DNA of 49,805 bases from Deltaproteobacteria bacterium (lineage in GTDB: Bacteria > Desulfobacterota > Syntrophia > Syntrophales > UBA2210). The position numbers and the translations under genes are program-made. Shown in pieces: positions 3,101 through 14,823 of this stretch (positions within the stretch are counted from its first letter, which is position 1; every line of letters begins with the position of its first letter). The notes beneath the pieces are model-generated. The model did no database searches. It was given only the letters and a program-made list of their open reading frames with translations, and had not been told where the DNA came from. The DNA lies in assembly GCA_016933215.1 (NCBI GenBank), contig JAFGBH010000015.1:1-49805 (forward strand), given 5' to 3'.

Positions 3101-3318
3101 ACTACGCTCTTGTTCCTGATAATGATGGGACAGGCAGCGTATCTTAGAGGTGAGATTCGATCCCTGATCGTTCAGTTTTATGGTTTGCTTGAACTTATTA
3201 TTCAAGGAAATTAAGATCTTATGAGACAGGTTGCGATGAACTCAATCCCCTTGGATCACAGGATCGAATCCTTAGTGCCGCATATCAACTCGATACAATG
3301 AAAAGAAGAGGGATCACC

Positions 3319-5256
3319 ATGCCAAAAACGCTGACGCAAAAGATATTGGAGCAGCATATCGTTACCGGTGAGTTCGAACCGGGAAAGGAAATCGGGATCC
3401 GTATCGATCAGACCCTGACACAGGATGCGACGGGAACCATGACCTATCTCCAATTCGAGGCGATGGGGCTTGACAGGGTAAAAACGGACCATTCGGTCAG
3501 TTTTGTCGATCATAATACGATCCAGATAGGCTTCGAGAATGCCGACGACCACCGGTATCTTCAGACGGTAGCGGCGAAATACGGGATCGATTATTCAAGG
3601 GCGGGAAACGGGATCTGCCATCAGGTTCATCTGGAAAGATTCGGCAGGCCCGGTACGACACTTCTCGGTTCCGACAGCCATACGCCGACAGGCGGAGGGA
3701 TCGGACAGATTGCCATAGGTGCGGGCGGCCTTGACGTGGCGCTTGCCATGGCGGGAGAACCCTTTTACCTTACCTGCCCGAAGATCATCAAGATCAACCT
3801 CACCGGTAGACTCAATCCCTGGGTGAGTGCAAAGGATGTAATCCTCAAGATTCTCGAGCTCTTTACGACGAAGGGAAACGTCGGCTGCGTCTTCGAGTAC
3901 GGCGGTCCGGGTGTCAAAACGCTGACCGTACCGGAGCGGGCGACCATCGCGAACATGGGTGCCGAGTGTGGAGTCACCACATCAGTGTTCCCCAGCGATG
4001 AGGTAACACGGGCATTTCTCAGGGCCCAGGCCCGAGAGGACGAATGGAAAGCGATGGATGCCGACGCCGATGCGGAATACTTCAAAGTCATAGAACTGAA
4101 TCTTACGGACATCGTTCCCCTTGCCGCGACGCCCCACAGCCCCGGAAATATTGCTACGGTGAAGGATCTGGAGGGTATGGCTGTTGATCAGATCTGTGTG
4201 GGCTCCTGCACCAATTCCTCCTATCGGGACCTGATGGTGGTCGCAGAAATCCTGAAGGGGAAAAAGACACATCCCCGTATCAGCTTTGTCCTCGCCCCCG
4301 GCTCAAAACAGGTGCTTGACATGCTGGCGAGAAACGGGGCACTGGCGGATCTTTTTGAGACGGGCGTGAGGCTCGCGGAAAATGCCTGCGGGTTCTGTAT
4401 CGGCAACAGTCAGTCACCGCAGACCGACGCCGTCTCCCTGAGAACGAGCAACAGAAACTTCCTTGCCAGATCGGGAACGAAGAGCGCAAATATCTATCTG
4501 GTGAGTCCCGAAACCGCCGCCGCCGCCGTCATTACGGGAACAATTACAGATCCGAGAGACCTCGGTATCCCCTATCCCGAGGTGAAGATGCCGGAGGAAT
4601 TCATCATTGATGATTCGATGATTATCCCCCCCTCGGACGATCCGGAAAGTATCGAGATCTACCGGGGACCCAATATAGGAGAACCGCCCGTCAATGAACC
4701 CCTCCCTGAGGATGTGCGAGGTATCGCAACGATAAAAACGGAGGATTACACCACGACGGACCACATCATACCCGCAGGCTCCCGGATGAAGTACCGGTCG
4801 AATGTGCCGAAGTACTCGGAGTTTCTCTTCGAGGTCGTCGATCCGGGCTTTTATGAGAGGGCACGGAAGATAAAGGAGGAGGGGAGCCACAATATAATCG
4901 TCGGAGGGCTCAGCTACGGTCAGGGTTCCTCCAGGGAGCATGCGGCACTCTGCCCCATGTATATGGGGGTAAAGGCCGTCATTGCAAAATCCTTCGAGAG
5001 GATTCATACGGCCAATCTCGTAAACTTCGGTATCGTCCCCCTTACCTTTAAAAACGAGGAGGATTACGAAAAGATCGATCAGGGGGACAGCCTGGAAATT
5101 TCCGGCATCTGCGAAAAAATCAGGGCCGGCGAGACAGTGACCGTCAACAACACGACAAAAGGCGTACACTTTGACGTCAGCTATGATCTTTCGGAGAGGG
5201 CCAGAGAGATTATGCTTTCGGGCGGTATGCTTTCGTATATCAGGAATAAAAGGTAG
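3319..5256 (+). CDS. Aconitate hydratase, short (Aquifex-type) form
   Basis: Interconverts citrate and isocitrate through a [4Fe-4S] cluster; cytoplasmic. The 645-residue length is that of the compact aconitase found in rTCA-cycle bacteria, shorter than AcnA (about 890). Cluster ligands are visible as Cys297 in GSCTNSS and Cys357/Cys360 in ACGFC. The substrate-binding [11 protein letters not shown] is near residue 118 and the swivel-domain [12 protein letters not shown] near residue 540. The ATG at 3319 follows a GAGGG and gives the family start MPKTLTQKI; an in-frame ATG at 3298 would add seven unlikely residues. It is the first gene of a tight operon: icd starts 11 bases after its stop. Confidence 0.93.
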
Positions 5257-5267
5257 GAGAAACTGTC

Positions 5268-6485
5268 ATGAGCGATAAGATCAGAGTAACAACACCGATA
5301 GTGGAGATTGACGGCGATGAGATGACGAGAATCATGTGGCAGATGGTGAAGGAAAAGCTCCTTCTTCCATACATGGATATAAACGCGGAGTATTATGATC
5401 TCGGTCTGAAAAAGAGGGATGAAACGGACGATCAGGTCACCGTGGACGCGGCCCATGCGATCATGAAATACGGTGTTGGGGTCAAATGCGCGACCATTAC
5501 GCCGAATGCGGCGCGGGTCGATGAGTACGGCCTGAAGAAGCAATGGTCAAGTCCCAACGGCACCATCAGGGGAATACTGGACGGCACCGTCTTCAGAGCC
5601 CCCATTCTGGTCAACAATATTCATCCCTTCGTGAGGACCTGGAAGAAGCCGATACATATCGGGAGGCACGCCTACGGCGATGTCTACAAAAACCAGGAGA
5701 TCAAGGTGCCGGGTCCGGGGACGGGCGAGCTGGTTTTTACGCCCCGCGACGGGAGCGAACCGATCAGAAAGGTAATTCAGGAATTTGAGACGCCGGGGAT
5801 ACTGCAGGGGATTCATAACACCGTTCCCTCAATCAGGAGCTTCGCCGTTTCCTGTTTTACCTACGCCCTGGATCAGAAGATCGATCTCTGGTTCAGCACG
5901 AAGGATACCATCTCGAAGACCTACGATGCGGAATTTCGAAAGATATTCGATGAGGAATACGAGGCAAACTGGAAGGAAAAATTCGACGACGCGGGAATCG
6001 AATACTTTTTTACCCTCATCGATGACGCGGTGGCGAGGATCATGAAATCGGAAGGCGGGATGCTCTGGGCCTGCAAGAACTATGACGGCGATGTCATGTC
6101 GGATATGCTCGCCTCGGCGAACGGGAGCCTTGCCATGATGACCTCCGTTCTGGTATCACCCCACGGCTATTTCGAGTACGAAGCGGCCCACGGCACCGTA
6201 CAGAAACACTACTACAAACACCTCGAGGGAGAACCAACGTCAACGAACTCGATGGCACTTATTTTTGCATGGACGGGGTGCCTGAAGAAGAGGGCGGAAC
6301 TCGATGAAACACCCAATGTGGCTGATTTTGCGAAGAAAGTGGAGGAGGCCTCCATAGAAACGGTGGAGAGCGGAGTCATGCCGGGGGATCTTATGAAGGT
6401 CGCCGATCCCGATCCGAAAAACCGGCAGGTCTCGACGGAAGAATTTATAGACGCTATCAAGGATAATCTCGAGAAGAAATTATAA
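5268..6485 (+). CDS. icd: Isocitrate dehydrogenase (NADP), eukaryote-like homodimeric type
   Basis: Oxidatively decarboxylates isocitrate to 2-oxoglutarate, or runs in reverse as a carboxylase in the reductive TCA cycle. The 405-residue protein resembles the subfamily of mitochondrial/cytosolic IDH rather than E. coli Icd: it begins with [13 protein letters not shown], carries [16 protein letters not shown] for isocitrate binding, and ends the cofactor region with [11 protein letters not shown] and [12 protein letters not shown]. The His-Gly-Thr surroundings fit NADP use. It sits between acn and aclB with gaps of 11 and 14 bases, so one transcript is very likely. NADPH made or used here would connect to the pnt transhydrogenase at 37-40 kb. 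Confidence 0.93.
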
Positions 6486-6499
6486 CTGAGAGGAGAGAA

Positions 6500-7777
6500 A
6501 TGGCACAGAAAGCGATACGAGAGGCTGATGGCAAGGCATTGATGGCCCGACTGCTCGCAGAGTACGCGGGGAGTATCTATAAGATTGAGAACAGATTCAT
6601 ATCGGTCGGACCCGATACCGATATAAAGAAACTTCCTCAAAAATATAAATGGTTGGCAAAAGAGAAACTGGTGGTAAAACCGGACCAATTGATAAAGCGG
6701 AGGGGTAAAAGCAAGCTCCTCCTTCTCGGTGCCGATTGGAAGAAGGCCGAGAAATGGATCAGAGAACGGATGAAAAAACCGGTCACCGTCGGTTCTGTGA
6801 CGGGAATTCTGGATCACTTTATCGTTGAGCCCTTTGTCCCCCATGACGAGAAGGATGAATACTACGTCGCCATCGTCTCGGAGCGTGAAGGGGACACGAT
6901 TCTCTTTCATCACGAGGGGGGGGTAAATGTTGGAGACGTTGATGCAAAGGCCCTCAAGCTCTTCGTCCCTATCGGGGAGATGCCGGGGGCGGGGAAAATT
7001 GAGCAAAAACTCCTCGGCGCGGTTCCGAAGGAGAGGAAATCTGTGATTGCAGGCTTTATCGAGGGATTATTCAAATTCTATGCGGATCTCAACTTCACCT
7101 ACCTCGAGATAAATCCCTTTGTCGTTGACGGTAAGGGGATAGTTCCCCTTGACCTTGCCGCCAAACTGGACGACACGGCATCTTTCGTGAGCGGCAGGAA
7201 GTGGGGAGGGATAGATTTCCCCTCTCCCTTTGGCAGAATGCTCACGAAAGAGGAGGCCTACATTGAAGAGCTCGATTCAAAAACCGGTGCGTCCCTGAAG
7301 TTGACGATCCTCAATCCGGAAGGCCGTGTGTGGACCATGGTGGCGGGAGGAGGTGCATCCGTTATTTTTGCCGATACGATTACCGACCTTGGATTCATGG
7401 ATGAGATGGCAAACTACGGTGAATACTCGGGAGATCCCAATGAGGAATTTACCTATCTCTACGCGAAGACTATTCTGGATCTCATGACAAGGAAGAAGAA
7501 TCCCAAGGGCAAGTTCCTCCTCATAGGGGGCGGTATCGCAAACTTTACCGATGTGGCGAAGACATTCAGCGGAATAATCAGAGCCCTCAAGGAATATAAG
7601 AATAAACTCCAGAGCAACAGGGTGAAGATTTTCGTGCGTAGAGGGGGGCCCAATTACAAAGAGGGCCTCTACAAGATGAGGGTCCTCGGAGAGGAACTGG
7701 GTGTGCCCATCGAGGTCTACGGGCCCGAGACGCATATGACAAAGATAGTTTCAATGGCCTTGAAGGGGGACAAGTAA
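6500..7777 (+). CDS. aclB: ATP-citrate lyase, small (ATP-grasp) subunit
   Basis: Equivalent to the N-terminal third of animal ATP-citrate lyase and related to the beta subunit of succinyl-CoA ligase; it binds ATP and passes phosphate to the histidine of the partner subunit. The 425 residues include an ATP-grasp fold (VEPFVPHDEKDEYYVAI, then LTYLEINPFVV-like FTYLEINPFV) and a CoA-ligase-like C-terminal domain with GGGIANFTDVAKTF. Order and size (small subunit first) match aclB-aclA of Chlorobium. An RBS, GAGGAGAG, lies just before the ATG. The stop codon abuts the ATG of aclA, indicating translational coupling. Succinyl-CoA ligase was considered and rejected because the partner carries a citrate-synthase-like domain. 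Confidence 0.93.
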   Translation: MAQKAIREADGKALMARLLAEYAGSIYKIENRFISVGPDTDIKKLPQKYKWLAKEKLVVKPDQLIKRRGKSKLLLLGADWKKAEKWIRERMKKPVTVGSVTGILDHFIVEPFVPHDEKDEYYVAIVSEREGDTILFHHEGGVNVGDVDAKALKLFVPIGEMPGAGKIEQKLLGAVPKERKSVIAGFIEGLFKFYADLNFTYLEINPFVVDGKGIVPLDLAAKLDDTASFVSGRKWGGIDFPSPFGRMLTKEEAYIEELDSKTGASLKLTILNPEGRVWTMVAGGGASVIFADTITDLGFMDEMANYGEYSGDPNEEFTYLYAKTILDLMTRKKNPKGKFLLIGGGIANFTDVAKTFSGIIRALKEYKNKLQSNRVKIFVRRGGPNYKEGLYKMRVLGEELGVPIEVYGPETHMTKIVSMALKGDK

Positions 7778-9637
7778 ATGGTACGGAAAGCGACAGCAAA
7801 AAAATCATCTGACAGGAAAAGTTACGAACTCTTCAGCCGCAACACCCAGGCATTTATATATAACATGCAGGTCAACGCGACACAGAGAATGCTCGATTTC
7901 GATTACTCCTCGAGAAGAGAAACGCCATCCGTGGCAGCGATAGTAAATCCCACGGGAAGTGAGTCACTGCAGAAATTCTTCTTCGGCCCGAAGGAGATAT
8001 TGATACCGGCCTACAAATCACTGGCCAGGGCTGCCGAAAAACACAGAAACGTCGATGTCCTCATCAGCTTTGCATCCTTCAGGTCCGCCGCGCAGTCTGC
8101 CGAGGAGGCCTTCGAGATTAAGCAGATAAAAACGATTGTATTGATTGCCGAGGGTGTCCCCGAGCGGCGCATGAGGGAGTTGAATGTAAAGGCAAAACGT
8201 CTGGGCAAGGTAATTATCGGTCCCGCCACCGTTGGCGGCATCAAGGCAGGAGCCTTCAAGATCGGCAACACGGCCGGGACGATCGAGAATATCATCGAGT
8301 CCAAGCTGCACCGGCCGGGTTCGGTGGGTTTTGTCTCAAAATCGGGAGGACTCTCCAATGAGGCATACAACATTATAGCGAGAAATACCGATGGGCTGTA
8401 CGAGGGTATCGCAATAGGAGGCGACAAATACCCGGGGAGCTCGCTCCTCGATCATCTCCTGCGGTATGAGAAAAATCCGGCAGTCAAGATGCTCGTCTGC
8501 CTCGGAGAGGTTGGCGGAACGGACGAATACGAAATCGTTGATGCCCTGAACAAAAAGAAGATAAAAAAACCGATTGTCATGTGGGTAACGGGTACCTGTG
8601 CGAAGGCCTTCAAAACGGAGGTCCAGTTCGGCCATGCCGGGGCAAAGGCGGATGCCGAGGCGGAAACGGCGGATGCCAAAAATGCCGCCCTGAAAAAGGC
8701 AGGTGCAATCGTGCCCGGATCCTTCGATGATTACGGCGACAGGATAAGAGAAACCTATAAAAAACTCACTACGCAGGGTGTCATAAAACCGGTACCGGAA
8801 GTTGATCCCCCCGATGTCCCTCTGGACATGAAAAAGGCGCTGGCGGAAGGGATGGTTAGAAGGCCGGCAAGCTTCATCTCCACCATATCGGATGATCGAG
8901 GTGAGGAGCTTATGTATGGTAAGTTCTCCATCTCGCAGGTCTTCAAGCAAGACATCGGTGTCGGCGGGGTGCTCAGCATCCTCTGGTTCAAGAAGCTTTT
9001 GCCCGAGTATGCGACGAAGTTCATCGACATGGTTATCATGGTGACGGCCGATCACGGACCGGCGGTTTCAGGCGCCCATAATACCATCGTGGCGACGAGG
9101 GCCGGAAAGGACCTCCTTTCGTCCCTCGTATCGGGTCTTCTCTGCATAGGCCCACGGTTCGGGGGTGCGCTCGACGGGGCGGCGATGCATTTTTCCGATG
9201 CCTATGACAGGGGGTTGTCGCCCCTCGAATTCGTGAATTCCATGAAACTGAAGGGGGTTAACATCCAGGGAATCGGACACAGGATAAAGTCCATTCATAA
9301 TCCCGATATGCGGGTGACGATCATTAAGAATTATGTGAAAAAGCACTTTAAGAATACGGAACTTCTCGATTATGCCCTGAAGGTGGAACAGATCACGACA
9401 GGGAAGAGGGACAACCTGATTCTGAATGTGGACGGCTGCATCGGGATATGCTTCGTGGACCTTTTGAGATCGGAGTTTTCAAAGGAAGAGGCCGACGAAT
9501 ATATCAAAATGGGGGCATTAAACGGCCTCTTCGTCCTGGGAAGAAGCATCGGATTCATGGGCCATTACCTTGACCAGAAGCGTCTCAAACAGGGACTGTA
9601 CCGTCATCCCTGGGAAGACATCGCCTACATGGAGTAG
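7778..9637 (+). CDS. aclA: ATP-citrate lyase, large subunit (CoA-ligase plus citrate-synthase-like domain)
   Basis: Completes citrate + CoA + ATP = acetyl-CoA + oxaloacetate + ADP + Pi. Residues 1 to about 350 resemble the succinyl-CoA ligase alpha subunit: CoA-binding Rossmann fold, [15 protein letters not shown], and the phosphohistidine His286 in [13 protein letters not shown]. Residues from about 355 to 619 form the citryl-CoA lyase domain homologous to citrate synthase, with [14 protein letters not shown], His501 in GIGHRIKS, Asp552 in LNVDGCIG and Arg589 in [15 protein letters not shown]. The 619 residues match bacterial AclA. The enzyme is reversible in some anaerobes: Chlorobium cleaves citrate for CO2 fixation, Desulfobacter makes citrate and ATP. 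Direction here is unknown. Confidence 0.94.
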
Positions 9638-9735
9638 GAGCAGTTTAAAGGCCCTGCAGGCTGAGAAGGAAAAGTTGTAGAACGGCGGTCGGATGTCCTG
9701 CCCCCTTTTTCTTATTGAATCCGGGAGGTGACGAA

Positions 9736-10725
9736 ATGGATGTGCCGGATTTTGAACTGGATACATCCCTCTTAGGAAACTCGAAAACCCTTGATTCTAC
9801 GGTTTATTATGATCTCGTGATTGTTGGCGGCGGACCGGCGGCAATGAGTGCGGCGGTTTACGCTGCCCGCAAGATGTTGAATTGTGCGGTGATTACGAGG
9901 GATTTCGGCGGACAGGTACTTGAAACCTCCGAGATAGAGAACTGGCTGGGATTTCAGAGTATCAATGCGCGGGACCTTGTCGCTTCCTTCGTGGAACATG
10001 TGAATAATTTCGACATGGCGGTGGCTTCGGACATGGGCGTTGCCGGAATCGAAAAAGAGGGTGATATCTTCAGGATAAAAACAGAGGACGGGAATGTCTA
10101 TTCCGCAAGAGCAGTAATCCTGGCGACGGGTAAGCGCCACCGACCCCTGGCCGTACCGGGAGAAAAGGAACTGGTAGGGAGAGGTGTTGCCTACTGTGCG
10201 ACCTGCGATGCGCCCCTTTTTCGGGATAAAGAAGTAGTGGTGGTCGGCGGAGGAAACTCGGCCTTTACCACTGCGGTCGATCTCCTGAAGGTCGGGGCCG
10301 GTGTGGTCATGGTAAACTTTATCGAGGGATGGCAGGCCGACGAGGCTCTTCAGGAGCGGGTGCACCGGGCCGAAAATGCGAAACTCTTTGATTATCATCA
10401 GGTGGTAAGAATTGAGGGAAAGACCAGCGTCGAGGGGGTCGTGATACAGGAAAGAGAAAAGGGGGAAGAAAAACTGTTGAAGGTGGAGGGTGTCTTTGTG
10501 GAAATAGGCCTTCTTCCGAACAGCGAATCGGTGAAGAACCTGGTTGCCCTGAATGATCTCGGCGAGGTGATTATCGATTGTTCCTGCCGCACGGATGTGG
10601 AGGGGTTCTTCGGAGCGGGCGATGTGACCACCGTTCCCCATAAACAGATTATCATTTCGGCGGGCGAGGGGGCCAAGGCGGCGCTCTCGGCGTACGATTA
10701 TCTGATGAAACACGCATTTGTCTGA
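9736..10725 (+). CDS. FAD-dependent disulfide reductase, AhpF C-terminal/thioredoxin-reductase type
   Basis: A 329-residue flavoprotein with FAD-binding GGGPAAMSAA (residues 31-40), redox pair Cys154/Cys157 in YCATCDAP, a second nucleotide site VVGGGNSAFTTA, and FGAGDVTTVPHKQI at the C-terminal FAD contact. The NADPH-selecting HRRxxxR of classical thioredoxin reductase is missing; the region reads VNFIEGWQADEALQERV, close to the AhpF pattern, which suggests NADH or another donor. Start ATG 9736 is placed by GGGAGGTG at 9723-9730. The next gene begins 10 bases after the stop and encodes a two-fold thioredoxin-like selenoprotein, the expected electron acceptor. Together they look like an AhpF cut into two genes. 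Confidence 0.88.
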   Translation: MDVPDFELDTSLLGNSKTLDSTVYYDLVIVGGGPAAMSAAVYAARKMLNCAVITRDFGGQVLETSEIENWLGFQSINARDLVASFVEHVNNFDMAVASDMGVAGIEKEGDIFRIKTEDGNVYSARAVILATGKRHRPLAVPGEKELVGRGVAYCATCDAPLFRDKEVVVVGGGNSAFTTAVDLLKVGAGVVMVNFIEGWQADEALQERVHRAENAKLFDYHQVVRIEGKTSVEGVVIQEREKGEEKLLKVEGVFVEIGLLPNSESVKNLVALNDLGEVIIDCSCRTDVEGFFGAGDVTTVPHKQIIISAGEGAKAALSAYDYLMKHAFV

Positions 10726-10735
10726 GGAGGGCGTC

Positions 10736-11380
10736 ATGGCACTTATCAAGGAGAAGGACAGAGAAAAACTCATCGGTCTCATGAAGGCGATCGAGGAAGA
10801 CGTCAAAATCGTCATGTTCACCCAGGAAAACGAGTGTCAGCAATGCCAAACTACGAGAGAATTGCTCGAGGAGGTCGCCGCTTTATCGGAAAAGGTCTCT
10901 CTGGAGGTGCGCGACTTTGAGGCGGACGCTGAGGTGGCAAAAAAGTTAGGTGTCGATAAAATTCCGGCAACGCTCATTTTAGGGGAGAAAGACTACGGTA
11001 TCCGCTTTTACGGTGTTCCCGCCGGGTATGAATTTAACGTGCTTATCCAGGATATTCTGGACGTGGGGAAACGATCACCCGGGCTGGACAAAAAAACACT
11101 GAAGGTCCTGGCGTCAATAGATAAGCCCGTTCACCTGCAGGTCTTTATCTCTCCCACTTGACCTTACTGTCCCGGTGCGGTTCGTACCGCTCACAGATTT
11201 GCCATGGCGAATGATACTATCTCCGCCGATATGGTCTCGGGCTCCGAATTTCCCTTTCTCGTCGTAAAATATAATGTCAGTGGTGTTCCCCATACCGTCG
11301 TCAACGAGGAGCACGGCATCGTGGGCTCCCTCCCGGAGAAGGAATTTGCCGAGGAGATCGTAAAGGCCGTCGGTGTATAG
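10736..11380 (+). CDS. Glutaredoxin-like/AhpF N-domain-like selenoprotein with Sec-x-x-Cys (UGA at 11159-11161)
   Basis: A 214-residue protein with two thioredoxin folds, read through an in-frame TGA as selenocysteine. Fold 1 carries Cys34-Gln-Gln-Cys37 and cis-Pro in DKIPATLIL. Fold 2 begins at VHLQVFISPT, then Sec142-Pro-Tyr-Cys145-Pro-Gly-Ala-Val, followed by 70 further residues with the canonical SGVPHTVV cis-proline and ending at TAG 11378-11380. Stopping at the TGA would delete exactly the catalytic half of fold 2. The motif matches CxxCP of protein disulfide oxidoreductases and the AhpF N-terminal domain, with Sec in place of the first Cys. ATG 10736 follows GAGGAGG at 10724-10730. The predicted role is to take electrons from the upstream flavoprotein and deliver them to peroxiredoxins or disulfides. 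Confidence 0.88.
11159..11194 (+). promoter_or_regulatory. UGA recoding site with candidate bacterial SECIS hairpin
   Basis: Downstream of the UGA at 11159-11161, GTGCGGT (11175-11181) pairs with ACCGCTCAC (11186-11194) around a TCGT loop, with one bulged T. The apical loop starts about 20 bases after UGA, the spacing expected for an in-frame bacterial SECIS bound by SelB. Seen by eye; not folded computationally. Confidence 0.65.
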
Positions 11381-11440: not shown

Positions 11441-12880
11441 ATGATATCCCTTCCCACCCATAAGACAAAGATCGTCTGTACTGTTGGTCCTGCCTCGAGG
11501 AGTTCGGCAGTCCTGACCGGTATGATGCGAAAGGGGATGAGCATTGCGAGGCTCAATTTTTCTCACGGAACCTTTGAGGAACACGAAAGGGATATCTCCG
11601 AAATTCGAGCGGCCGCTGCTTCACTTCAAAGGCCCTGTCCCCTCTTTGTGGACCTTCCGGGCCCCAAAATACGCGTGGGTGCACTTGAAAACGAGGCGGT
11701 TTTGCTGAAAAAAGGCGATGCCGTTACGATCACGACCCTGGATATCAGGGGAACACGTTCCATCATTCCCGTTACCTACACGAGACTTCCCGAAAGCGTT
11801 TCCCCCGGCAGTATTATCTACTTAAGCGATGGCTTCATAGAGTTGAGGGTCGAAGACGTTACCGGAAATGAAGTACGCTGCGTCGTTGTCGTGGGGGGAC
11901 AGCTCCTCAAGGGGAAAGGACTTAATCTTCCCGGAGCGAAGATGCTTGTCCCCTCTCTCACCGAACGTGATTTTGAACTTATGGAATTTGCCCTGAAAAT
12001 GGGAATTGGTATTTTTGGAATTTCCTTTGTCGAGTCGGCGGAGGATATCCTGAGGGCGAAGGAGTTTGCCGGAAGCAGGGGGAAATCGATCTATACGATT
12101 GCAAAGATCGAACGGACCGAGGCGGTTGAGAACATTGATTCCATCCTGGGTGTTACCGATGCCCTCATGATCGCCAGGGGAGATCTGGGTGTCGAGGTTC
12201 CTATAGAGGAGGTGCCCGCGCTCCAGAAGGAGCTGATTCGAAAGGCGAATCTTTGCTGCCGTCCCGTCATTACGGCGACGCAGATGCTGGAATCCATGGT
12301 GGACAATAACCGTCCCACCAGGGCCGAGGCGACCGATGTGGCAAATGCGATTCTCGACGGGACCGATGCCGTCATGCTCTCCGAGGAAACTGCCATAGGA
12401 AATTTTCCCGTGGAAACCGTAGAGATGATGGCAAAGATATCACGAAACATCGAAGGCAAAAGGAGAAGCATACGATCGACGTCATTTCTGCAGAATCTCC
12501 TTAGAGAGGAACTTCACAAAGGGAAAATTACCGTTCCCGATACCATTTCGCTCAACACATCAGAGGCTTCCGATGTGTTGGATGCGCCCTTTATCCTCGT
12601 TCCCACGTCGCAAGGCATGACCGCCCGACGTATCTCCCGTTTCAGGCCCGAGAGCTGGATACTTGCCGTTAATGAAGATCAGCGTATCTGCGATTTCGCC
12701 TTCTTCTCCTACGGGGTCTATCCCGTTATTATGGATGCATCCGGTGATGAATGGTCCGGGGATTTCGTTGAATATCTCAAAGATTCCGGTCTTGTGCGTA
12801 CGGGGGAGAGGATTATAGTTACGGAGGGGAAATATTCAAAAGAGGCGGGTACCGATTCTCTCGGTGTCATAACCGTCTAA
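11441..12880 (+). CDS. pyk: Pyruvate kinase
   Basis: Converts phosphoenolpyruvate and ADP to pyruvate and ATP in the cytoplasm. The 479-residue protein has the N-terminal KTKIVCTVGPASRS, substrate loop ARLNFSHGT, FVDLPGPKIRVG, the active-site lysine region TIAKIERTEAVENI, the signature MIARGDLGVEVP, and TATQMLESMVDNNRPTRAEATD. The C-terminal allosteric domain is present, although divergent. AAGGA lies eight bases before ATG 11441. It follows the selenoprotein gene by 60 bases without a visible terminator, so it may be on the same transcript. Together with AclBA-derived oxaloacetate it belongs to the C3/C4 branch of central metabolism. Confidence 0.93.
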   Translation: MISLPTHKTKIVCTVGPASRSSAVLTGMMRKGMSIARLNFSHGTFEEHERDISEIRAAAASLQRPCPLFVDLPGPKIRVGALENEAVLLKKGDAVTITTLDIRGTRSIIPVTYTRLPESVSPGSIIYLSDGFIELRVEDVTGNEVRCVVVVGGQLLKGKGLNLPGAKMLVPSLTERDFELMEFALKMGIGIFGISFVESAEDILRAKEFAGSRGKSIYTIAKIERTEAVENIDSILGVTDALMIARGDLGVEVPIEEVPALQKELIRKANLCCRPVITATQMLESMVDNNRPTRAEATDVANAILDGTDAVMLSEETAIGNFPVETVEMMAKISRNIEGKRRSIRSTSFLQNLLREELHKGKITVPDTISLNTSEASDVLDAPFILVPTSQGMTARRISRFRPESWILAVNEDQRICDFAFFSYGVYPVIMDASGDEWSGDFVEYLKDSGLVRTGERIIVTEGKYSKEAGTDSLGVITV

Positions 12881-13005
12881 CCGAGAAGTGCTCTGCCCCG
12901 TTTTATCTTCAGATGATACAGGCAAAGAGAACCCGGTATCTTTTTTATCTATTGATTGCTATGATGCCCCCGCGTGAACAGGAAAAACGATACGAGGAAC
13001 TATCC

Positions 13006-14823
13006 ATGTATGGAAATAACGGAATGATACTGAAGGTAAATTTAAGTACCGGTGAAATGAATGAGGAACCGTTCGACCGGGAATTCTATATGCAGTATCT
13101 TGGCGGAAATGGTCTCATTGCGAGGCTTATATACGATAACGTGCCTCCCTCCGTGAACCCTCTGGAACCCGAAAACAGCATCGTCTTCGCCGTGGGTCCC
13201 CTGACTGACACGCCCGTCTGGGGAACAAGCAGAGGACATGTAGGGACGATTTCTCCCCAAACGGGCCTTTTCTGTGACTCCAATTATGGCGGCGACTTCG
13301 GGATGGCAATAAAGCGGACCGGGTATGATGCAATCTATATAACTGGGAGATCTCCGAAACCGGTCTATCTCTCTGTGACGAAGGGAGAAGCAGAACTGAA
13401 GGATGCCGGTATCTACTGGGGCAAAACGACAGAGGAAACGATTGATGCAGTGGAAGAATCGGCGGGGAAGGGCGCCGTCGCATCTGCCATAGGGCCCGCC
13501 GGTGAAAAGGAGATTGTCTTCGCAAATATTATATGTGGCGGCAAGAGAAGAGGTGCTGCCGGCAGGGGTGGCATGGGGGCCGTTCTAGGGTCAAAGAATC
13601 TCAAGGCCATTGTTGCCGGTGGGGGCCGGAAAACCCGGATTGCCGATACAGAGGGCCTGAAGAATATTCTCAGAGAACGCCTTCCCGATCTCAAGAAAAA
13701 CAAGGGAGCAATGACAAAGACGGGGACAACGGCGCTGGTCGATATGGTAAATTCGAAAGGTATGCTCGGCACGCATAATAATACGAGGGAAACCTTTGAA
13801 TATGCGAAGGATATTTCGGGTGACAACTTTTTAAAAACCTATAAGGACAAGAATACGGCATGTCATGGCTGCGTCATCGCCTGCGGACAGAAAGTAAACG
13901 TCACAGAAGGTGATTACTCCGGTGAGAGTGTCAAGATGCCTGAATATGAGACGCTTTACGCCATGGGGTCAATGCTCGATAATCACGACATCAACACAAT
14001 ATTCAACGGCAATCATATCTGTGATCTCATGGGCATCGACACCATCTCTATGGGAGTAACCCTTGCCTTTGTGGCCGAATGCATGGAACGGGGGATTATC
14101 ACGGAAGATGAGATCGAAGGCAGGGTCGATTTTAACGACGGCAAGGGAATGGTGGAGTTGATCAAGAAGACGGCCGGGAAAGAGGGAATCGGGAAATTCC
14201 TTGCCCTCGGCTCTCACAGATTAGCAAATCTGATAGGGAAAGAGTCCTACAAATATCTCTATGCGGTTCAGGGGCTTGAGTGTGCCGGCCACTCGGCGAG
14301 AGGACTGAGGGGAATGTCTCTCGCCTACTCAACGTCCACGAGGGGCGGAAGCCACCATGATGCGCGTCCAAATTATCCGGAGCACTCCCATCCCGACCCG
14401 GGTTTTGATGGGATACCTGAGTATGTGGCGGAAAGTCAGTATTTTACAGCTGTAGGAGATTCGCTTGTCATCTGTCGCTTTATTGCGGAGGGAATGATGG
14501 GGCCGAGTGCGGTCGGTGAGAATATGGTAAAAATCCTCAACTGCGTGACGGGGTGGAATATTGGAATCGATGATCTCAGGAAAATCGGGGAGCGAATCTA
14601 TAATCTGGAGCGGCTCATAAACGTGAAGCGCGGGGCGAGCCGTAAGAACGATGTTCTCCCTTACAGGGTCATGACTGAGCCGATTCCAGACGGTCCGGCG
14701 AAGGGAAGATATGTTCCCCGGGAAGCACTCGATAAAATGCTTGACAGGTATTACGAACTGAGGGGGTGGAACGCCGAAGGGATACCCACGGAGGGAAAGC
14801 TCAAAGAACTCGGCTTGAACTGA
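13006..14823 (+). CDS. Aldehyde:ferredoxin oxidoreductase (tungsten-bispterin enzyme)
   Basis: Oxidises aldehydes to acids with ferredoxin, or reduces acids with low-potential ferredoxin; cytoplasmic. From ATG 13006 the protein has 605 residues, like the Pyrococcus enzyme. The proximal [4Fe-4S] ligands appear as Cys286, Cys289 and Cys293 (ACHGCVIACGQ) plus Cys490 (DSLVICRF), with the same spacing as in the archaeal protein. The pterin-binding signature GRGGMGAVLGSKNLKAI is near residue 187. An upstream in-frame ATG at 12913 would add 31 residues with no family match; GAGGA at 12994-12998 supports 13006. Substrate specificity within the AOR family (AOR, FOR, GOR, benzoyl-CoA-reductase-like) cannot be fixed from sequence. 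Confidence 0.9.
   Translation: MYGNNGMILKVNLSTGEMNEEPFDREFYMQYLGGNGLIARLIYDNVPPSVNPLEPENSIVFAVGPLTDTPVWGTSRGHVGTISPQTGLFCDSNYGGDFGMAIKRTGYDAIYITGRSPKPVYLSVTKGEAELKDAGIYWGKTTEETIDAVEESAGKGAVASAIGPAGEKEIVFANIICGGKRRGAAGRGGMGAVLGSKNLKAIVAGGGRKTRIADTEGLKNILRERLPDLKKNKGAMTKTGTTALVDMVNSKGMLGTHNNTRETFEYAKDISGDNFLKTYKDKNTACHGCVIACGQKVNVTEGDYSGESVKMPEYETLYAMGSMLDNHDINTIFNGNHICDLMGIDTISMGVTLAFVAECMERGIITEDEIEGRVDFNDGKGMVELIKKTAGKEGIGKFLALGSHRLANLIGKESYKYLYAVQGLECAGHSARGLRGMSLAYSTSTRGGSHHDARPNYPEHSHPDPGFDGIPEYVAESQYFTAVGDSLVICRFIAEGMMGPSAVGENMVKILNCVTGWNIGIDDLRKIGERIYNLERLINVKRGASRKNDVLPYRVMTEPIPDGPAKGRYVPREALDKMLDRYYELRGWNAEGIPTEGKLKELGLN

Follow-up and report, generated by a model that had tools for sequence, protein, structure and literature searches.

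Two adjacent genes on the forward strand, at 9736 to 11380 of the window (the whole stretch of 49,805 nucleotides that was analysed), raise a question of decoding and a question of function. The second gene carries an in-frame TGA at 11159, and it has to be decided whether this codon is a stop or is read as selenocysteine (Sec), to which family the readthrough product belongs, and what it could be doing together with the flavoprotein encoded just before it. The first-pass annotation had described the locus as an AhpF-like system split into two genes, the second of them being the N-terminal domain of AhpF, detached and equipped with Sec. The two-gene layout with its 10-base gap is borne out by the coordinates.

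The reductase gene

The first gene begins with ATG at 9736, behind a ribosome-binding site that was read directly (GGGAGGTGA, 9723 to 9731), and ends with a TGA stop at 10723-10725. Its product is a thioredoxin-reductase-like flavoprotein of 329 aa (9736 to 10725), as judged from profile matches and from the AhpF structure 1hyu, the closest solved structure (E 1e-73). It has no thioredoxin-fold domain of its own. The redox-active site, CATC, can be read directly at 10195 to 10206 and aligns with CPHC of 1hyu. In the profile searches the C-terminal region of AhpF matched residues 18-325 with 341.7 bits, and the thioredoxin reductase (TrxR) model TIGR01292 (TRX_reduct) gave 296 bits, under its cut-off of 343.45; the protein is thus nearer to AhpF than to TrxR. 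The NADPH site HRRxxxR is absent, and VNFIEGWQAD stands at its place. A canonical thioredoxin reductase of the TIGR01292 type was rejected on the score and on this missing motif. An AhpF-like NADH site had been proposed earlier, and the absence of HRRxxxR agrees with it. A preference for NADH, on the other hand, is less certain, because the nucleotide-site Glu of AhpF (LLEFAPEMKAD) is replaced by Asn in this reductase and throughout the clade, whose paired reductases read VN...GWQAD.

The predicted selenocysteine-containing protein disulfide oxidoreductase

The second gene starts with ATG at 10736, 10 bases past the reductase stop, and ends with TAG at 11378-11380. Without readthrough its product would end after residue 141; past the TGA the frame goes on as PYCPGAVRT... 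for 72 codons up to the TAG, giving a predicted protein disulfide oxidoreductase (PDO) of 214 aa (10736 to 11380). The NCBIfam model TIGR02187 (PDO_seleno_TRX) matches it at 263.6 bits (cut-off 185, E 9e-79), and this match covers residues 6-211 and model positions 2-209 of 209, unbroken across the TGA. Thioredoxin_3 matches in two stretches, in keeping with two thioredoxin folds. The active site of fold 1, CQQC (C34-C37, 10835 to 10846), is present as had been noted earlier, and a CxxC is conserved here in the close PDO relatives; that of fold 2, UPYC (Sec142-Cys145, 11159 to 11170), includes the TGA at 11159-11161. Both sites align on the Pyrococcus furiosus PDO 1a8l, which matches over most of its length with E 4.5e-44. 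The closest structures are the Pyrococcus PDOs 1a8l and 1j08 and the glutaredoxin-like 2ywm and 2ayt, all in near-full-length alignments; 2ayt is the Aquifex PDO. Structures of AhpF rank after these (E 5e-12 to 2e-10), and the N-terminal region of AhpF reaches only 98.7 bits.

By these comparisons the second protein is a PDO of family TIGR02187 and not a detached N-domain of AhpF. The first thioredoxin fold of AhpF has no CxxC, and a fold 1 of that type was rejected here since CQQC is present. Membership in AhpF itself (TIGR03140) was likewise rejected, as the 341.7 and 98.7 bits are split over two proteins and the cut-off is 502.9. In addition, the same architecture is found in Cys-containing PDOs across bacteria and archaea. 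Alignment does give two-fold homology to the AhpF N-domain as well as to the PDOs, but membership is with the latter, as shown by the profile scores together with the fact that both active sites are intact; the AhpF label is misleading on this point.

What remains of the comparison with AhpF (1hyu, 4o5q) is that the two proteins correspond to its two halves, the N-terminal double fold and the TrxR-like part, as the first-pass annotation had it. Unlike AhpF, the window has two proteins instead of one, the order of the modules is swapped in the order of the genes, fold 1 of the PDO keeps its CxxC, and no AhpC lies beside the pair. The archaeal and Aquifex PDOs (1a8l, 1j08, 2ywm/2ayt) share with the window PDO two thioredoxin folds with a CxxC-type site in each; the Pyrococcus proteins have CPYC in fold 2 at the place of UPYC, and the window PDO differs in having Sec for the first Cys of that site. 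The Sulfolobus solfataricus PDO has a TrxR as partner, as in the window pair. PDOs have been called exclusive to thermophiles (PMC7465337), and the host of the window is a bacterium.

Decoding of the TGA

Purifying selection was found to act on the codons past the TGA, with the same pattern as on those before it. In comparison with four loci that carry the same TGA (L018, L174, L021 and L049), 45-53 of the 72 codons beyond the TGA keep the encoded residue; synonymous changes number 23-32, and the differences lie mostly in third positions. For L018 alone, 53 of 72 residues are identical, there are 30 synonymous changes, and 41 of the 64 differences are at third positions. A total of 85 PDO loci were compared, the window's own included. 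At the site of residue 142 every one of them has either TGA (13 loci) or a Cys codon (72 loci), and the residues that follow are (P/S)(Y/H/F)C in all 85. On the tree of these sequences Sec and Cys have interchanged at least 6 times, or 8 times by parsimony, a frequency in line with a family already known to have both Sec and Cys forms. The concern that homologs might end at the TGA with nothing conserved after it is thus answered: the codons are constrained, and the homologs carry TGA or Cys. Taken with the unbroken TIGR02187 match, these comparisons give good support to U142-P-Y-C145, and UGA 11159 is very probably read as Sec. Ten other candidates for TGA readthrough in the window were scanned, and none has a Pfam match spanning its TGA.

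A probable bacterial SECIS hairpin of 7 bp, proposed from folding and from pairing in the clade, lies at 11173 to 11189 with the loop GUU at 11180-11182. Its stem begins 11 nt past the UGA, and it spans +15 to +31 when the T of TGA is numbered +1, in line with the earlier remark on a hairpin at the right distance. The clade has five Sec forms, and each of them keeps the five central pairs (16-30 to 20-26), with changes that preserve pairing: G-C becomes A-U or G-U at one pair, U-A becomes U-G, and G-U becomes G-C. Only the outermost or innermost pairs are ever lost among these Sec forms, whereas the three Cys forms of the clade have lost 1-3 of the five central pairs. By itself the hairpin of the window is unexceptional (z -1.1 to -1.7): when synonymous codons were shuffled, 35% of the resulting sequences folded equally well or better. 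Family-wide, the median folding energy after the codon is -11.7 kcal/mol in Sec forms against -6.5 kcal/mol in Cys forms (p 1e-5), and the difference persists with a synonymous-codon control (p 0.004), both p values being optimistic because the sequences are related. A single hairpin register for all 13 Sec forms was tried and rejected, the loop being at +22-24 in the clade of the window and at +21-23 in many others. An Rfam scan of the window gave no family at threshold.

Selenium machinery in the genome

The genome that holds the window (G000, an assembly of 102 contigs) was searched for the machinery of Sec insertion. Of the selABCD set that the first-pass annotation had wished to see, selA (595 bits), selB (348 bits) and selD were found, the last (L138, C61:84488-85417) with a TGA of its own at the active site (GAGUACKIGPGDL). 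The genome also has UGA-containing formate dehydrogenases (HCARLUHS and HQARIUHS). For tRNA-Sec, no match over the cut-off was obtained in the 102 contigs, and each of the eight candidates that were checked proved to be an ordinary tRNA; a search with the sequence of relatives gave only a 22-base fragment in mid-contig (C102:6472-6493), which is not a gene. Among the relatives, G051 has a complete gene and G005 one that is truncated by a contig end, so the absence is most simply an assembly gap.

A genuine stop or an error at 11159, which would leave a protein of 141 residues followed by a decaying tail, could draw on this missing tRNA-Sec and on the weak z-score of the hairpin. It is nevertheless extremely improbable in view of the purifying selection past the TGA, the same TGA in four other loci, the family match that runs through it, and the Sec machinery of the genome.

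Two minor observations concern the assembly. The 22-base fragment (L162:1500-1522) matches the 3' end of tRNA-Sec at all but one base; it may be what remains of the attachment site of an element that inserts into tRNA-Sec. C25:6721-8100 and C37:43-333 (L159 and L160) hold pieces of what is seemingly one UGA-containing formate dehydrogenase (HQARIUHS), and the ends of the two contigs share one stretch, which suggests an assembly break at this gene.

Pairing of the two genes and proposed function

In eight genomes (the window, L018, L174, L021, L019, L048, L049 and L050) the two genes are neighbours in the same order, with the reductase immediately before the PDO; these genomes belong to the class of the host, to Nitrospirota and to Myxococcota. 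The pairing occurs with Sec PDOs and with Cys PDOs alike. The other PDO loci mostly have no adjacent reductase detected, or have one farther away, often downstream. Among 155 genomes searched within the class of the host, four turned out to carry the Sec PDO and one a close Cys relative.

We consider it likely, with good confidence, that the locus encodes a two-gene NAD(P)H:disulfide reductase system in which the C-terminal site of the PDO, UPYC, contains Sec from UGA 11159. The two proteins would very probably supply oxidised proteins with electrons. From what is known of characterised relatives, electrons would go from NAD(P)H to the FAD of the reductase, from there to its CATC, and then to the oxidised PDO. 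UPYC would carry out thiol (selenol) exchange on target disulfides or on sulfenic or selenenic acids, Sec142 acting as the attacking residue and Cys145 as the resolving one, and CQQC of fold 1 could assist it. In S. solfataricus the NADPH-TrxR-PDO system serves to regenerate peroxiredoxins; for the thiol-transferase activity of this PDO its C-terminal site is fundamental (PMC7465337, PMC7278568). The activity in the window could be different: the pair might serve mainly as a PDI-like system for disulfide isomerisation or oxidation in the cytoplasm, since both active sites of the PDO are intact and the isomerase activity of the S. solfataricus PDO needs both. This is very unlikely, as the reductase directly upstream and the Sec at the thiol-transfer site would point to reduction.

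The targets of the reductive system are probably several proteins, and a peroxiredoxin is a plausible substrate. One candidate is the Sec peroxiredoxin (PrxU) of the same genome (L151:1372-2034, contig C21:3987-4649; profile NF040737, 373.5 bits), which has a TGA at the peroxidatic position (DFTFVUATE). It has no C-terminal resolving Cys, with AMPSGW where 2-Cys peroxiredoxins have VCPAGW, and therefore should need an outside reductant. A stronger proposal would make the pair a dedicated peroxide system that regenerates mainly PrxU, a relay of the AhpF/AhpC type with selenium in both shuttle and peroxidase. The Sec and the missing resolving Cys of PrxU would fit this, as would the peroxiredoxins regenerated by the S. 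solfataricus PDO and the tandem use of selenium in a Grx and an MsrA (Kim et al. 2011, cited in PMC13188914). Distribution speaks against it. PrxU is encoded on another contig, and strong UGA-containing matches to it occur in 27 of 60 related genomes, of which only three (G000, G002 and G005) have the PDO; G051, which is 80% complete, has the PDO and no detected PrxU. An exclusive partnership is for these reasons unlikely. A canonical TrxR is also present in the genome (C24, 378 bits) and could be serving the PDO as well; no AhpF-length reductase is found among the strong TrxR matches of the genome. A system dedicated to PrxU therefore appears rather unlikely. More doubtful still is a direct selenium-to-selenium relay, in which electrons would go from the reductase through the Sec PDO to the selenenic acid of PrxU in a split AhpF/AhpC-like peroxide reductase. 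If true, it would place selenium at both transfer steps of a physically split peroxide reductase.

Relation to known selenoproteins

The Sec PDO family is already known, having stood in lists of selenoproteins since 2006, and the window pair is a well-supported example of it. For Carboxydothermus and Symbiobacterium, Zhang et al. 2006 (PMC1794560) gave a selenoprotein family 'homolog of AhpF, amino-terminal domain', and a survey of 2007 listed CHY_0740 as 'glutaredoxin-like' with a TGA (PMC1914089); CHY_0740 is probably the same gene as ABB15282.1 of Carboxydothermus hydrogenoformans. Reviews of 2022 and 2026 give the family as TIGR02187 with UxxC (PMC9312934, PMC13188914), and it occurs in Asgard archaea too (PMC11227280). 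The first-pass annotation had thus reached a known selenoprotein family independently, even its historical label. The Sec proteins of C. hydrogenoformans (ABB15282.1) and Symbiobacterium thermophilum belong to the same TIGR02187 family and have the same UxxC; the window differs from them in lineage and in the reductase that lies directly upstream. This adjacent and conserved reductase is a useful addition, yet it follows the known archaeal partnership. This selenoprotein family mostly appears in lists with no electron donor, and the neighbouring reductase suggests a candidate for that role; it also connects the bacterial Sec form with the TrxR-PDO-peroxiredoxin relay of archaea. Since Sec and Cys exchange frequently, paired forms such as L021 and L019 could allow the advantage of selenium in a disulfide shuttle to be quantified.

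By eye, the frames just before the pair (3298-9637) resemble aconitase, isocitrate dehydrogenase and two subunits of succinyl-CoA/ATP-citrate-lyase type, and those after it (11441-14823) resemble pyruvate kinase (11441) and aldehyde:ferredoxin oxidoreductase (12913). Also by eye, a rubredoxin-like domain ends a reading frame near PrxU.
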